From: Pseudomonadota bacterium
GTDB lineage: Bacteria; Pseudomonadota; Gammaproteobacteria; Burkholderiales; Burkholderiaceae_C
Length of the DNA: 64,000 bases
Reading direction: 5' to 3'
NCBI GenBank assembly: GCA_021816585.1
Contig: JAKAXL010000005.1
Location: forward strand, 1 to 64,000
In this document: in pieces, positions 93 to 41,757 of the stretch
Layout: each line of letters starts with the position of its first letter
Numbering within the stretch: position 1 is the stretch's first letter
Notes under the pieces: model-generated
Seen by the model: the letters and a program-made list of their open reading frames with translations, nothing else
The model's database searches: none
What the model was told of the DNA's origin: nothing
Position numbers and translations under genes: made by a program

Positions 93-435
93 CGGGGACA
101 CGCTTCGCGGTGAGGCCCTCGAGCCGCCCCTCGATGCGCAGCGCCGAGCGTCGCAGCAGGTCGCCGATGCGCCCGCTCTCGTCGGCGCCGGTGCCGGCGT
201 GTTCGCGCACCACGCCGAGGCTGCCGATCATTCGACCGTGCCTGGGCCCGCATGCTCAGCGAACGTGCCAGGCTCGACGGGCAGGACGGCGACGGCGTGG
301 ACCCGCAGGCGTTCAAGGGCTATTTCCAGCGCCATGCGCGATTCACGGCCGGGTTCGCCACACGCGATCCCGGGCCTCGCGACGCCCGGACTGCTGTCGC
401 CGCGCAAGGTACGCCACCGCCTGCGCGACTGCCTG

Positions 436-918
436 CTAGAAGCGCTGCTGCAACCCGACGATCAAGGTGTCCAGGTTCGCTCCGAGCCTGCCGCTCGCGC
501 CCGGCACCAGCTGGTATTCGACCCGCGCGCTGCTGGCAGGAGCGAGCGCATAGGACAGGCCGACCCCCAGCAACGGGGCCTCGCCGCTGCCATCGTAGCC
601 GGTGGGACTCTCGGTCCAGAACACCAGGCCGAACTGGCCGAGCAGGTGCAGGCGGCTGGCGATCGGGTGATGCACGATCGCACTGGCGCCGACAAGGGTC
701 GTCTCGTAGTGGGTCAACGACGCGTAGCTCAACTCGAGGCCGAGCACGGAATCGAGGCGATAGCCGGCGTCGAGGCCGAAATCGTAGGATCGGCCATGCC
801 CCGGGGCATTCGTGACGCCGATGTCGCCACCGACCGTGAACCCCGACTGGGCGTGCGCGGCGGCACCGAAAGGCGCAGCCGCGAGCAACACAATGAGCAG
901 GATCTGCTTGCTGGTCAT
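436..918 (-). CDS. outer membrane beta-barrel protein
   Basis: MTSKQILLIVLLAAAPFGAAAHAQSG signal peptide; alternating beta-strand pattern; terminal F (VGLQQRF). Confidence 0.75.
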   Translation of the reverse strand: MTSKQILLIVLLAAAPFGAAAHAQSGFTVGGDIGVTNAPGHGRSYDFGLDAGYRLDSVLGLELSYASLTHYETTLVGASAIVHHPIASRLHLLGQFGLVFWTESPTGYDGSGEAPLLGVGLSYALAPASSARVEYQLVPGASGRLGANLDTLIVGLQQRF

Positions 919-1212
919 GATGGGGTGCGGGCTCCGCAAGTCGAGCCGGGCGGGCTTTCCCCGGGGAAGGCCGGCGTGTGGCAACCGGGGGCCTTGGAGC
1001 CATGCGTGTCGCGGTCCGCCCGCCATGCCGCGACGTCGAAGGGCCCGTGCGATCGGTCCGGGGGCTGGTCGGGGATGATCCGGGATCGATCTGGAAAAAT
1101 CGATGCACGGATGCGTGATTTCACGTCGACCGAAGCATGAAGCCCGACGGCGGCCACCCCGGGAGAGCGGGGTGCGGCGCGGCGCACGGCGCATGCCTCG
1201 TGGCGCGGCGCG

Positions 1213-1239
1213 CAAAAAAAACCCGGCGCTAAGGCCGGG
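1213..1239 (-). terminator. Rho-independent terminator of the peroxidase operon
   Basis: On minus strand CCCGGC-CTTAGC-GCCGGG followed by T8, just after the stop at 1244. Confidence 0.8.
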
Positions 1240-1243
1240 TCAA

Positions 1244-2707
1244 TCATCGGGGAGCCGTGAATCCGGGCTCCAATCTAGGAGGCGAGTGTTGCTGGGTCGT
1301 TGCCGAGACGTTTCGATCGGCGACGCCCGCCCGCCCCCGGTGCCATCCGTCGTCGAGGGTCTTCAGGAAGGCGATGATGTCGCGCATGTCGCGCCGGCTC
1401 ATCGCCGGAGCCTGGCCGAGGTGCCGGTTGAACGGCGGGTCGGTGCGATCGACATTGGCGCGGTAGCGCGCAGGCAGGTCGTTGAACTTCTCGACATGCC
1501 CGTCGACCGTCGGGTAGATCTTCCACGGGCGCGTGTCGCGATAGTCGTAGAAGGCCAGCACCTGCGCGAGGTGGTGGTACACACCGTTGTGGAAGAAGGC
1601 ATGCCGCGTCGCCGCGTTGCGCAGCGTCGGCGTGAGGAACATGCCGCAGTAGCGGGTCTGTTTGGCCAGGTCCTTGCGGTAGGGGCCGCAGATGCCGAGG
1701 TCGAAGTAGCGCGGGTCGCGGTTCGCCGGGATCGCCGGGTTGCGCGGGACCCCGAGCGCCTCGTACTGCGTGTCGGTGAACAGCGGGGGCAGGCCGTCGG
1801 GGCTCGGCCGGTCGAGATGGCATGCCGCGCAGTCGCCCTTGCGCGGGTCGTTGAAGTCGATGTAGCCGCGCCGCTGGGCCGGCGTGAAGCGCGCCCTGCC
1901 CTGCAGCCAGGCGTCGAACTTGCTGTCGAAGGGGTGGAAGCTGGGGTCCTCGATCTGGTAGCGCGCCAGCGCGAACAGCGCCTCGCTGACCAGCAATCGG
2001 GGCTCGTGCAGCACCGCGGGGCCGAACAGCATCGCGAACTGCTTCGCGTAGGCCGCGTGCCGCAGCTTGCGTGCCACCGTGGCGACGCTGCCGCCGTCCA
2101 TTTCCAGCGGGTTGAACAGCGGCCCGTCGGCCTGCTGCTGCAGCGTGTCGACCCGTCCGTCCCAGAACAGCCCGCCCTGCGGCACCAGGTTGGCCCCGCT
2201 GGCCTGCGTGTCGTGCGCGGTCTTGCGCACGCGTGGGGCCCGGATGCCCAGCGCCACCAGCTGCTGCAGCGTGATGGTCTCGTTCTCCTCGTTGTCGGGG
2301 CCGATGCTGAAGTTCTGCTGCCGGTACAGATACTCCAGCGACGGCACGGCGCGCACGCCGGGCCGGTTCAGCGCGCCGCCGCCGAACTGCACCGACAGCG
2401 AGTTCGCCGGTGCGTAGGCATGGTGCGGGTCATGACACGACGCGCAGGACATGCGTCCCGACCCCGACAACGCGGGGTCGTGGAACAGCACGCGCCCGAG
2501 CCGGGCGACCGCGCTCAGAGGGTGCCGCGGCGGCAGCTTCAGACGTACCGGGTGCGGGTTCGCGCCGTCGGGCAGCACCAGCACGGCCGGCGCGGATGCC
2601 GCGCCGGCCGTGCCGGAAGGCGCGGCGACGGCGTGCGCGGCCGTCCACCCCGCGCACGCTGCCAGCGCGAGCAGCGCCGCCGCGACGGGCCACGCACGCC
2701 CGCGCAT
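1244..2707 (-). CDS. di-heme cytochrome c peroxidase / MauG family protein
   Basis: Signal peptide; two CxxCH motifs (CASCHDPHH, CAACHLDRP); typical LGRVLFHDPALSGSGRMSCASCH. Confidence 0.85.
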   Translation of the reverse strand: MRGRAWPVAAALLALAACAGWTAAHAVAAPSGTAGAASAPAVLVLPDGANPHPVRLKLPPRHPLSAVARLGRVLFHDPALSGSGRMSCASCHDPHHAYAPANSLSVQFGGGALNRPGVRAVPSLEYLYRQQNFSIGPDNEENETITLQQLVALGIRAPRVRKTAHDTQASGANLVPQGGLFWDGRVDTLQQQADGPLFNPLEMDGGSVATVARKLRHAAYAKQFAMLFGPAVLHEPRLLVSEALFALARYQIEDPSFHPFDSKFDAWLQGRARFTPAQRRGYIDFNDPRKGDCAACHLDRPSPDGLPPLFTDTQYEALGVPRNPAIPANRDPRYFDLGICGPYRKDLAKQTRYCGMFLTPTLRNAATRHAFFHNGVYHHLAQVLAFYDYRDTRPWKIYPTVDGHVEKFNDLPARYRANVDRTDPPFNRHLGQAPAMSRRDMRDIIAFLKTLDDGWHRGRAGVADRNVSATTQQHSPPRLEPGFTAPR

Positions 2708-4452
2708 CAGCTCGAGCTCGGCGAGTCGCTTCCCGCCGGCGCGCGGCGCAGCACCGTGCCCCGCGCCGGATCCAGGTACAGCCGGGGATCCAGGCGTTCG
2801 CCGTGCCTGCCGCGGTGTTCGGAATCGTGGTCGCGGTCGAAGCGGAACATGTTCATGATGCTGCCGCTGGTGGCGTCGAAGGAGCCGCCGCCCAGGCGTT
2901 CGCCGTGCAGCCAGTTGTCCTCGATGAAGCGCGTCACCGAGGCCAGCGAGATGGGGCGGTGGCTGACGTAGTCCGGCTTCGCCCACGGCGAGATGACCAG
3001 GAACGGGATGCGCGTGCCGGGGCCGCAGCGCCCGTTCACCGGCTGGCCCTTCAGACCGGGAAGCGGCGTGCCGCTGCCGCACACGCCGGGGCCGTCGAGC
3101 TGGTCCGCCTGCGCGTCGAAGGAGGGGTTGGTCGGGGTCGCGAAGGCGTGGTCGTACCAGCCGTCGGAGTCGTCGTAGGTGACGATCACCACCGTGCTCT
3201 TCCACTGCGGTTGCTGCTCGAGGAAGTTGACCACCTTGGTCACGAAGGCCTGCTCGTCCAGCGGATCGGAGTAGCCGGCGTGCGCGTCCTCGTAGGCCGG
3301 CGCCTTGAGGAAGCTGACGGCCGGGAAGTCGCCGGCCTTCACCGCGGCGAAGAAGTCGTTCATCCCGTACTCGTGGTTGGCCGGATCGTGGATGCGCGTG
3401 CCCGGTTCGTAGGTGTGGCCGATCGCGCGCACCGAAGACGGCCGCGCGTGGCTCGGGTTGGCCGTCGACGGGAAGTACTGGAACCAGTCGTGGTGCGGGA
3501 TGTAGTCGGTCTGCGTGCCGGTCACGCTGGACGTCGTGCTGCGCTTGCACCCGGTCGTGCCGTTGGCGTTGACCGTCTGCAGGTTGAAGCCGCCCATGAA
3601 GCCGCCCCAGGAGATGCCGCGCTGGTTCAGCAGGTCCCCGATGTTGCGCCCCTTCATCAGGACCTGGTCCTTCGGGTTGGAGCACACGTCGTAGGCGGGA
3701 TCGACGTCGCTGATCAGCGTGTAGCCGCCGACGCCGTCGTCGATGTAGTAGGACGCGGCGGCCAGCGTGAACGGCTTCTTGGTCGTCTTGACCAGCTCGA
3801 CGCCGTTGGTCTGGCCCGACACGACCTCGAGCGCGCCGGGAGTCGACGGGCCGTAGGTGTCGGTGTAGGCGTCGTCGCTCATCGCGAAGTGCTGTGCGTA
3901 GTTCCACAGCGCGGTCACGGTGTTGCCGTCGTAGTAGCCCATCACCTGGCCGGTGGTCCCGAAGGCGCCGACGGCGCCGTGGGTGGCGGTTCCGGTGTAG
4001 CGCGGGAAGGCGTCGGCCTTGCCGCCGTCGTAGGCCTGCTGCTCGGCCGTGTAGCCATGGTTCTGGTCGGCGGTGGCCGCCTGGCTGCGATCGAGGCGGA
4101 AGGGGTTGGTGCGACCGGCGCCGTTGACCGGATTGGTCGAGTTCGGGTTGTCGGTGAGCAGCGCGCCGCTCAGGCCGTTGACCCGCGGCGTGCCGGGCGC
4201 GGCGTGGAAGGCCGGTTCGCCGGGGGGATTGGCCGCATGCGGGTAGGTCGCGAAGTAGTGGTCGAAGGACACGTTCTCGTTGAACAGCACCACCACGTGC
4301 TTGATCGGCGTGGCGGTCGGGAACTCCCGCGCGGGCGCGGCGAGATCGTGGTCGGGCTGGTCGGACGGACCGGCCGTCGCGGTGCAGGCACCGGTGCCGG
4401 CCCCGATCGCTGCCGCGATCAGGGACGTGGCGAGCAAGGTCTTGCGCAACAT
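2707..4452 (-). CDS. phosphoesterase family protein (acid phosphatase AcpA / phospholipase C-like)
   Basis: IKHVVVLFNENVSFDHYFATYPHAANP motif, N-terminal signal peptide; stop overlaps the start of the downstream peroxidase (TGATG). Confidence 0.8.
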   Translation of the reverse strand: MLRKTLLATSLIAAAIGAGTGACTATAGPSDQPDHDLAAPAREFPTATPIKHVVVLFNENVSFDHYFATYPHAANPPGEPAFHAAPGTPRVNGLSGALLTDNPNSTNPVNGAGRTNPFRLDRSQAATADQNHGYTAEQQAYDGGKADAFPRYTGTATHGAVGAFGTTGQVMGYYDGNTVTALWNYAQHFAMSDDAYTDTYGPSTPGALEVVSGQTNGVELVKTTKKPFTLAAASYYIDDGVGGYTLISDVDPAYDVCSNPKDQVLMKGRNIGDLLNQRGISWGGFMGGFNLQTVNANGTTGCKRSTTSSVTGTQTDYIPHHDWFQYFPSTANPSHARPSSVRAIGHTYEPGTRIHDPANHEYGMNDFFAAVKAGDFPAVSFLKAPAYEDAHAGYSDPLDEQAFVTKVVNFLEQQPQWKSTVVIVTYDDSDGWYDHAFATPTNPSFDAQADQLDGPGVCGSGTPLPGLKGQPVNGRCGPGTRIPFLVISPWAKPDYVSHRPISLASVTRFIEDNWLHGERLGGGSFDATSGSIMNMFRFDRDHDSEHRGRHGERLDPRLYLDPARGTVLRRAPAGSDSPSSS

Positions 4453-39416: not shown

Positions 39417-39608
39417 ATGCGCCTGTTCATCGCCATCATCCTGCCCTGGCTGGCCTTCTTCACCATCGGCAGGCCCATCGCCGGAATCGTCTGCCTGATC
39501 CTGCAGCTGACCATCCTCGGCTGGATCCCGGCGGCCATCTGGGCGGTCTACGCGCTGGGCCAGTACAAGACCGACAAGAAGATCGAAGCCGCGCTGGGCC
39601 GGCGCTGA
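39417..39608 (+). CDS. YqaE/Pmp3 family membrane protein
   Basis: FIAIILPWLAFFTIGRPIAGIVCLILQLTILGWIPAAIWAVYAL. Confidence 0.8.
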   Translation: MRLFIAIILPWLAFFTIGRPIAGIVCLILQLTILGWIPAAIWAVYALGQYKTDKKIEAALGRR

Positions 39609-39682
39609 AGAGCAAACGCCGGCATGAAAATCGCCAAGTACTCAGCGATGCCCTATGCGGCGTACTCCCCGCGGTCTTTCGG

Positions 39683-40015
39683 CTAGTCGTTGCCAGCGGG
39701 GTTGACCACGCCCGCATCCACGCTGTTAGGCGTCGGCCCTGGTGTGCGCTGAAGTGCGATACCGCCAATTCCAAGGATCACGCCGGGTATCGGCGCAACC
39801 GAGCTCCCGGCGGGGGCCGGCGCCACAGGTCCGACGGCAATGGCTAGCTGGGGCCCGGCTTCGAAGTGGCCTTCGTGCAGGTTGAAGTGCTTTACGAGGA
39901 GAGTCGCCAGCGACTTCAAGTCGACCGTGAGCTGCTTTGGCCCCTCAGCCAAGCTAGTGGTGACTGGCTGCGTCGCCGCGCTTGGCCGGCGCCGTGAAGA
40001 CTTCGATGTAGCCAT
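39683..40015 (-). CDS. conserved-looking hypothetical protein overlapping the hicB 3' end
   Basis: LTVDLKSLATLLVKHFNLHEGHFEAGPQLAIAVGPVAPAP...GPTPNSVDAGVVNPAGND; 62-bp overlap with hicB in another frame. Confidence 0.6.
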   Translation of the reverse strand: MATSKSSRRRPSAATQPVTTSLAEGPKQLTVDLKSLATLLVKHFNLHEGHFEAGPQLAIAVGPVAPAPAGSSVAPIPGVILGIGGIALQRTPGPTPNSVDAGVVNPAGND

Positions 40016-40463
40016 CGATCAGTTCGAGCTCCTGGGAAGCAACGAGGTCGCGTTCGATAACGTTCACGCCGACCTCAACCGTATGGTGATGCTCGTGATG
40101 ATGCTTCACGCTGCGCCGATCCTCGAGGAAAGAATCCATCGCTCGACACATCCATTCATTGAGCGTCAGCCCTCTTCGGTGCGCGTCAAGGTTCGCCTCA
40201 CGATGGCGGTCAGACCCGACGCGCACATTGAACGTCCCTTTGCATGGAACGTCCGGCTGCTCACCCGCATCTGCGCATGCGTCCAGGTAGTCGTCTACGG
40301 CTTCGCGGAAGGCGGCCTCAATCGACTCGAACGTATCGCCGCTGTACCCGATCGTGTCCTTGATGTAGAGCAGCCGTCCTACCAGGACGCGTGACTCCAC
40401 ATCCGCCTCGACGGAGCCGATGTAGCCCTTGTACTCAAGGGTGCTTCTGGTGTGTGTCTTCAT
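39954..40463 (-). CDS. hicB: HicB-family antitoxin with C-terminal RHH-like segment
   Basis: LEYKGYIGSVEADVESRVLVGRLLYIKDTIGYSGDTFESIEAAFREAVDDYLDAC; FNVRVGSDRHREANLDAHRRGLTLNEWMCRAM. Confidence 0.85.
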   Translation of the reverse strand: MKTHTRSTLEYKGYIGSVEADVESRVLVGRLLYIKDTIGYSGDTFESIEAAFREAVDDYLDACADAGEQPDVPCKGTFNVRVGSDRHREANLDAHRRGLTLNEWMCRAMDSFLEDRRSVKHHHEHHHTVEVGVNVIERDLVASQELELIDGYIEVFTAPAKRGDAASHH

Positions 40464-40716
40464 TCTTCCCACTCGCCCGCGTCTTGCAATCCTTCGATCA
40501 GCAAGTCCCTCATGTAGGGAAGCAAGGTGTTGCGAGGATGAGGTTCATGGAGCCGAACTTTCTTGCTGTGCGTTGGTGCACGAACATACGTCCGGAACCT
40601 CTAGTATTGTTGCGCAATGTGAAATTGCAGACGCGCATGAGCGCGACCGTGTCGTCCCAACTGAAGTTGCCTGACTTCGTTTGAAGCTTGGCGATCAGCT
40701 TGTGCTTTTGCGACAC
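40460..40716 (-). pseudogene. hicA: HicA-family mRNA interferase, frameshifted (two-frame ORF)
   Basis: Frame 1 MSQKHKLIAKLQTKSGNFSWDDTVALMRVCNFTLRNNTRGSGRMFVHQRTARK, then -1 frame VRLHEPHPRNTLLPYMRDLLIEGLQDAGEWEE*; shift at AGAAAG (forward 40559-40561); stop overlaps hicB ATG. Confidence 0.75.
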
Positions 40717-40746
40717 GCTGGCAGTATCAATGAAAGCCCAAATCTT

Positions 40747-40766
40747 AGCAACTAGATCTAGTTGCT
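40747..40766. promoter_or_regulatory. 20-bp perfect palindrome upstream of hicA; candidate HicB operator
   Basis: AGCAACTAGATCTAGTTGCT; overlaps a plausible -35 (TTGCTA-N17-GATACT on minus strand). Confidence 0.6.
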
Positions 40767-40980
40767 CCTTGAGCAGCCACGCGACAGCCACATCGCAAGC
40801 AAGGGCAAGCTTGCGCCAGTCCGTCGGGGACACATGAAGAGGTGGCCCGGCAATACCGAACACGGCGATAAGTGGGTAGGCTGCTCCCCTGGGTGATGAA
40901 TTCGCCCGCGCCTGCACCGCGGTCGAACTGCGTAGCTGGATGCCAGCTAGATCAAAAATTCGCAACTTTTCCACTCTATC

Positions 40981-41757
40981 GTGAAGATCGCCACCTGGAA
41001 CGTCAATTCGCTGTCCGTGCGCCTGCCGCAACTGCTCGACTGGCTGCGCGAGCAGCAGCCCGAGATCGTCGTGCTGCAGGAGACCAAGCTGGTCGACGCG
41101 CGCTTCCCGCATGCCGAGCTGCTGGCCGCGGGCTGGCAGGCGCAGTGCTTCGGGCAGCCCACCTACAACGGCGTCGCGCTGCTGTCGCGCACCCCGGCGC
41201 AGGACGTGCAACGCAACCTGCCGCAGCTGCAGGACCCGCAGGCGCGGCTGATCGCCGCCACCGTCGAGGGGCTGCGGGTGGTCGGCGCCTACTTCCCGAA
41301 CGGGCAGGAGCCCGGCAGCGACAAGTTCGCCTACAAGATGGACTGGCTGCAGGCGCTGGAGACCTGGCTCGCGCAGCAGCTGGCCGCCTACCCGCGACTG
41401 GTGCTGCTGGGCGACTTCAACGTCGCGCCGGAGGACCGCGACGTGTATGACCCCGAGGCCTGGCGCGGCAAGATCCATTGCACCGACGAGGAACGCGGGC
41501 ATTTCCGCAAGCTGCTGGAGCTCGGACTGGTCGACGCCTTCCGGCTGTTCGAGCAGCCCGAGAAGAGCTGGAGCTGGTGGGACTACCGCAACCTGGCCTT
41601 TCGCCGCAACCAGGGCCTGCGCATCGACCACATCCTGGTCTGCGAGGCCTTGCGCGGCCGCGTGCGCGCCTGCGCGATCGACCGCGCGCCGCGCAAGAAC
41701 GAGCGCCCCAGCGACCACGCGCCGGTGTACGTCGAGCTCGACTGGCCGGCCGCCTGA
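40981..41757 (+). CDS. xth: exodeoxyribonuclease III
   Basis: KIATWNVNSLSVRLPQLLDWL, VVLQETKLVD, LGDFNVAPEDRDVYDP, SDHAPVYVELD; GTG start. Confidence 0.92.
   Translation: MKIATWNVNSLSVRLPQLLDWLREQQPEIVVLQETKLVDARFPHAELLAAGWQAQCFGQPTYNGVALLSRTPAQDVQRNLPQLQDPQARLIAATVEGLRVVGAYFPNGQEPGSDKFAYKMDWLQALETWLAQQLAAYPRLVLLGDFNVAPEDRDVYDPEAWRGKIHCTDEERGHFRKLLELGLVDAFRLFEQPEKSWSWWDYRNLAFRRNQGLRIDHILVCEALRGRVRACAIDRAPRKNERPSDHAPVYVELDWPAA

Follow-up and report, generated by a model that had tools for sequence, protein, structure and literature searches.

Within the window, the whole 64,000-nucleotide stretch of DNA analysed here, an AT-richer island of approximately 1.34 kb (positions 39637–40980) lies between a YqaE-like gene on its left (39417–39608, plus strand) and xth, a gene of the exonuclease III family, on its right (40981–41757, plus strand). 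The drop in G+C content that the initial annotation had placed at about 39640–40980, between these two flanks, is borne out by measurement: the island has 59.0% GC versus 71.3% across the remaining window, and none of 614 stretches of equal length is as GC-poor. The island carries three genes on the minus strand (39683–40716), in the order already proposed for them, hicA, hicB and orf3. Upstream of hicA, the AT-rich part at 40717–40980 holds no recognised gene and is presumably promoter and insertion remnant.

The island is a recent insertion in the window genome. In the closest congener (genome G1040, locus L069; xth 94% identical), yqaE is joined directly to xth, forming an empty site, and the insertion target is present as a single copy at the start of xth. 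In the window, the ends of the island form a repeat of approximately 11 bp of the xth start, with one mismatch between the copies. The left copy, ATGAAAATCGCC (39624–39635, plus strand), is a remnant of the xth start, and the right copy, GTGAAGATCGCC (40981–40992, plus strand), is located at xth itself, whose start codon after the insertion is GTG. The empty congener site and the doubled xth start indicate that the module came in by insertion of a 1.34-kb segment, with a short duplication of the target. No transposase or integrase was found inside the island, and a GTTAGGC motif at approximately 39726, considered as an integron attC site, was ruled out by eye, being part of the orf3 coding sequence. 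Besides the window genome, only 1 of 28 congeneric genomes searched has any orf3 relative, and that relative belongs to a different module. Plasmid and phage records searched with several different Orf3 queries gave no match, and hence no indication that orf3 is carried by plasmids or phages.

The toxin gene hicA (40460–40716, minus strand) lies directly upstream of hicB, as expected of a HicAB pair, and is collinear with intact HicA homologues, with a GTG start at 40716 and a single frame change near 40564. Its N-terminal frame, the only frame searched, matches phrog_8887 (‘toxin’, E = 4e-5), and intact homologues match PF07927 (E = 1.5e-9 and 3e-10). The HicA-like open reading frame of the initial annotation thus stands as to its family, although not as an uninterrupted frame, and the hint given there that hicA would need repair is borne out by the frame change. 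Given that intact hicA copies elsewhere have no such break, the window copy is either broken or affected by a contig error at this point; programmed frameshifting was rejected, because the break is absent from every other copy read. As sequenced, the window hicA is not an intact toxin gene, the module is therefore probably inert as a toxin, and this copy alone tells us nothing about function.

The antitoxin gene hicB (39954–40463, minus strand; ATG at 40463, with a possible GTG at 40472, and stop at 39954–39956) shares an ATGA with hicA, formed by the stop of one and the start of the other, an overlap that had been noted previously and is present in the sequence. Its product meets the criterion for a HicB antitoxin domain (PF05534, E = 7e-12) and matches the HicB-like family phrog_9151 (E = 1e-35). 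Toxin and antitoxin thus belong to the families of two-gene HicAB systems (PF07927/PF05534) and keep the usual order and overlapping genes; the module differs from those systems by an extra HicB tail, a third gene and, in this copy, the frameshift in hicA. In the predicted model, the folded HicB core is followed by a C-terminal tail (residues 116–169, encoded at 39957–40118, minus strand) with a pLDDT of approximately 30, predicted to be disordered, which is His-rich and ends in HH. A second, more distant HicB-like match (E = 1.7e-5) is present in the same genome, on contig C83 at 3703–3924.

The third gene, orf3 (39683–40015, minus strand; ATG at 40015, stop at 39683–39685), encodes a protein of 110 amino acids and overlaps hicB by 62 bp in a different frame, in agreement with the overlap of about 62 bp reported initially. 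Homologues were found in about 25 genomes, and in close pairs (L016/L017 and L020–L022) dN/dS is 0.06–0.14, comparable to the values of hicA and hicB, and this holds as well for the part of orf3 that does not overlap hicB; the gene is real and under purifying selection. The AlphaFold2 model of Orf3 has a helix (residues 33–43) and strands at 50–64 and 76–91, in a core block with pLDDT of approximately 88–94 over most of its length, a pTM of 0.53 and a disordered N terminus. Conserved sequence comprises KHYGxHEG behind the helix, PGA in the second strand and VDAAxVNP at the end, which in most homologues is followed by a basic (K/R-rich) C-terminal tail that the window copy lacks. No match to Orf3 was found in Pfam, NCBIfam, PHROGs, PADLOC or PDB sequences, so the uncharacterised protein family to which the initial annotation had likened it is absent from the family libraries searched, and a Foldseek comparison of the model with PDB and viral models returned nothing below E = 0.6.

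To what extent orf3 belongs with its neighbours can be judged from its homologues, which the initial annotation had suggested examining for nearby toxin–antitoxin (TA) genes. The 14 loci found by a species scan, with one genome for each of 85,462 species, belong to Beta- and Gammaproteobacteria, including one whose contig is binned as Anaerolineales, and all 13 loci with upstream sequence have the arrangement hicA–hicB–orf3. The pattern used was built from only four sequences, and the scan hence favours close relatives. In less biased searches of whole genomes from the phylum, clearly more than 1,000 different ones and mostly from the class, orf3 lies directly behind an antitoxin in 12 of the 14 genomes whose match was solid and could be resolved, adding, among others, the linked loci L012, L090, L091 and L092. 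Altogether, an antitoxin is found directly upstream of orf3 in 23 of the 26 loci with readable upstream sequence, although sampling, which was by profile, is incomplete. The absence of association with TA genes that the initial annotation had set as its refutation is thus strongly contradicted. One locus (L019) ends too early for linkage to be judged, and two weak genome matches were not counted, one inside an unrelated 496-residue frame (G168, E = 8e-4) and one in a 60-residue frame (G993, E = 4e-4).

The remaining three relatives (L004, L033 and L034) stand alone, which implies either a function of the Orf3 family or relatives of it beyond TA modules. They are also what can be said for Orf3 being a mere passenger that lies behind TA genes by chance, a reading that we regard as most improbable: linkage in 23 of 26 loci, to several antitoxin families, largely refutes it, and the strong purifying selection on orf3 and the co-occurrence of the gene with an antitoxin tail speak against it too. 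Among the roles initially envisaged, those of third TA component, effector or passenger, linkage and selection favour the first. The initial annotation had not anticipated that an antitoxin tail accompanies orf3 or that further TA families share this partner.

The 23 linked antitoxins comprise 19 HicBs of the main type, 1 divergent HicB, 1 HigA, 1 MqsA-like and 1 XRE-type protein, and hence at least three families. Locus L094 shows a HicB tail followed by orf3, and at L036 a second HicAB subfamily precedes orf3, with the protein in the HicA position recognised by eye only. In the genus of the window, locus L088 encodes a HigB toxin (HigB_toxin, PF09907, E = 4e-24) and a helix–turn–helix antitoxin, followed by an orf3 relative, and the kinship of HigA-linked with HicB-linked Orf3 is supported by an hhalign probability of 98%. 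The antitoxin of this HigB–HigA–orf3 arrangement (L088/L089, genome G1036) is 206 amino acids long, with an apparent C-terminal extension ending in YGWLSCAPRV. At L113, an MqsA-family antitoxin (TIGR03830, E = 5e-9, below the cut-off of that model) is accompanied by a DUF4258-like toxin (E = 8.5e-5, slightly short of the Pfam cut-off), and at L112 the protein encoded upstream of an XRE antitoxin is not recognised.

A feature common to the linked HicB antitoxins is the length of their C-terminal region. HicB relatives were found with the core domain as query, and those without orf3 comprise 29 related loci from a class-wide sample. Beyond the HicB core, orf3-linked antitoxins have 30–55 residues versus −10 to 21 in these relatives, and the ranges of full length are disjoint (139–169 versus 90–131 amino acids). 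An antitoxin extension that is absent from two-gene relatives is thus established for HicB; in the HigA, MqsA-like and XRE antitoxins it was judged by eye only. In the HicB tree, the orf3-linked members do not form one clade, and three changes are needed to explain their distribution, at least two of which are forced by well-supported branches; 13 of the 19 fall in one supported clade, so that the correlation with the tail rests on few independent events. The HicB of L028, from the contig binned as Anaerolineales (Chloroflexota), is placed inside a strongly supported clade with Methylococcaceae sequences, reflecting either transfer or misbinning.

The tail end possibly also co-varies with Orf3. 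Among the main-type HicBs, 15 of 18 complete tails terminate in His and the rest in Gln, regardless of whether the gene overlaps orf3, and at all 15 loci where HicB ends in His the partner Orf3 has His43. In the lineages without this residue (L036, L091/L092 and L088), the antitoxins end in Glu, Gln and Val, respectively. The association (Fisher P = 0.009, uncorrected for descent) hints at a possible contact between the tail end and Orf3, but no more than that.

Tailed antitoxins with a third gene are known from toxin–antitoxin–chaperone (TAC) systems, in which HigA, HicB or MqsA antitoxins come to depend, through an extension at their C terminus, on a co-encoded SecB-like chaperone (PMC5105189, PMC6377645). 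As in HigBA1–SecB of M. tuberculosis and HicAB–SecB of Methylomonas methanica (PMC5105189, PMC6377645), the order in the Orf3 modules is toxin, antitoxin and third gene, the last directly downstream; HigA, HicB and MqsA are antitoxin types of both, and both have an antitoxin C-terminal extension that two-gene relatives lack. Where they differ is in the third protein, which here belongs to a family of approximately 100 amino acids without detectable relation to SecB. A homologue of SecB as the third protein, which defines TAC, is hence not found in Orf3, and we propose the module to be TAC-like in its working rather than a TAC member by its defining protein. No third hicAB gene and no non-SecB TAC was found in the open-access literature, with most subscription papers and preprints outside the scope of that search.

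An origin of Orf3 by strong reduction or divergence from SecB, which would make these modules ordinary TAC systems, is quite unlikely. Antitoxin families, gene order and the kind of antitoxin tail all agree with such an origin, and the sole segment aligned by hhalign pairs the first strand of Orf3 with a SecB strand. This hhalign match, obtained with SecBs of ten genomes from the class, mostly orf3 carriers, however has a probability of only 0.5%, PF02556 was detected at E ≤ 1 in none of 18 Orf3 members, and the 50 Foldseek matches listed for Orf3 do not include SecB. Furthermore, the Orf3 core spans approximately 75 residues, as opposed to approximately 140 for SecB, and the genomes have an ordinary secB at another place.

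Conserved and under selection, orf3 is linked directly to several antitoxin families and co-occurs with HicB tails. By analogy with TAC, we think it probable, with some reserve, that Orf3 binds the antitoxin tail and stabilises the antitoxin, as part of a tripartite system that resembles TAC but does not use SecB. In such a system, HicA would be the toxin, by its family of the mRNA-cleaving type, and HicB the antitoxin and DNA binder, equipped with an extra, putatively disordered C-terminal tail. Orf3, a small dedicated partner, would recognise this tail and stabilise the antitoxin or aid its folding. Control of the toxin would then depend on Orf3 being free to bind, and the toxin would be released once Orf3 is titrated away or lost; the same Orf3 family has also entered HigA- and MqsA-type modules. 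Tail binding, stabilisation, toxin release on Orf3 titration and a phage or stress trigger are all inferred, with no binding, toxicity or rescue data. Against the TAC-like reading, nothing in the Orf3 sequence suggests a chaperone, and the protein is not detectably SecB; the three stand-alone relatives, the basic tail of many Orf3 copies and the few independent events behind the tail correlation also count against it.

The basic C-terminal tail of many Orf3 copies would also suit a role with nucleic acids. Orf3 could on this basis be a co-repressor or nucleic-acid-binding regulator that binds the antitoxin tail or the operator and tunes transcription of the operon, leaving antitoxin stability unaffected. 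TA operons in which a third gene encodes a separate regulator are known, and the position of orf3 in the operon is conserved. We consider this role unlikely, although not to be dismissed: the window Orf3 has no basic tail, the partner antitoxins already bind DNA themselves (through RHH in HicB and HTH in HigA and MqsA), and the predicted core of Orf3 resembles no known fold, DNA-binding or other.

In CmdTAC (PMC11618068) and HigBAC (PMC11980606), phage proteins pull the chaperone away and the toxin is freed. These systems are tripartite like the Orf3 modules, with a third protein that stabilises the antitoxin and is able to sense phage proteins (PMC11618068, PMC11980606). Their families of toxin and chaperone are not those of the Orf3 modules, some of which adjoin defence genes. 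Such genes occur in 4 of 12 neighbourhoods checked, encoding DpdE (L015), HsdS (L020), HsdR (L022) and PD-T4-6 (L027), but there is no background rate for defence neighbours, and a phage role is therefore only suggested. The same neighbourhoods, together with the sensing of phage proteins by the SecB-type partners of CmdTAC and HigBAC (PMC11618068, PMC11980606), could point to Orf3 as an effector, as another toxin besides HicA or as a sensor through which phage infection sets the toxin free, contributing little to the stability of the antitoxin. This we hold to be distinctly unlikely, as Orf3 has no catalytic-looking motif or known fold, and a sensor role overlaps the antitoxin-stabiliser explanation rather than opposing it.

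Taking the stabiliser reading further, Orf3 may be the first of a new class of non-SecB antitoxin addiction, a plug-in with a cognate tail that was taken up by HicB, HigA and MqsA-type antitoxins in parallel to SecB and serves as a safety catch that can be released and that may sense proteins of phages or others. We put this forward tentatively, as a possibility that we would not yet bet on. A metal-dependent latch, built from the Orf3 HxxxHE motif together with the His-rich tail, is speculation. If the broader proposal holds, third-party control of antitoxins arose repeatedly, with a second, apparently unrelated family acting on the same three antitoxin families, again tailed. The compact system of approximately 100 amino acids would make tail recognition and toxin release directly testable, and searches for TA and defence genes would gain an extra, unannotated family.

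Two further arrangements were observed around individual modules. At L015, the gene of the DpdE homologue (317–3253, E = 8e-182) ends approximately 70 bp upstream of hicA, placing the TA module directly behind a Dpd defence gene. Just downstream of hicA–hicB–orf3 in genome G058 (L003, 800–1428), we recognised by eye a MazE/PemI-like and MazF/PemK-like pair, so that two TA modules adjoin.
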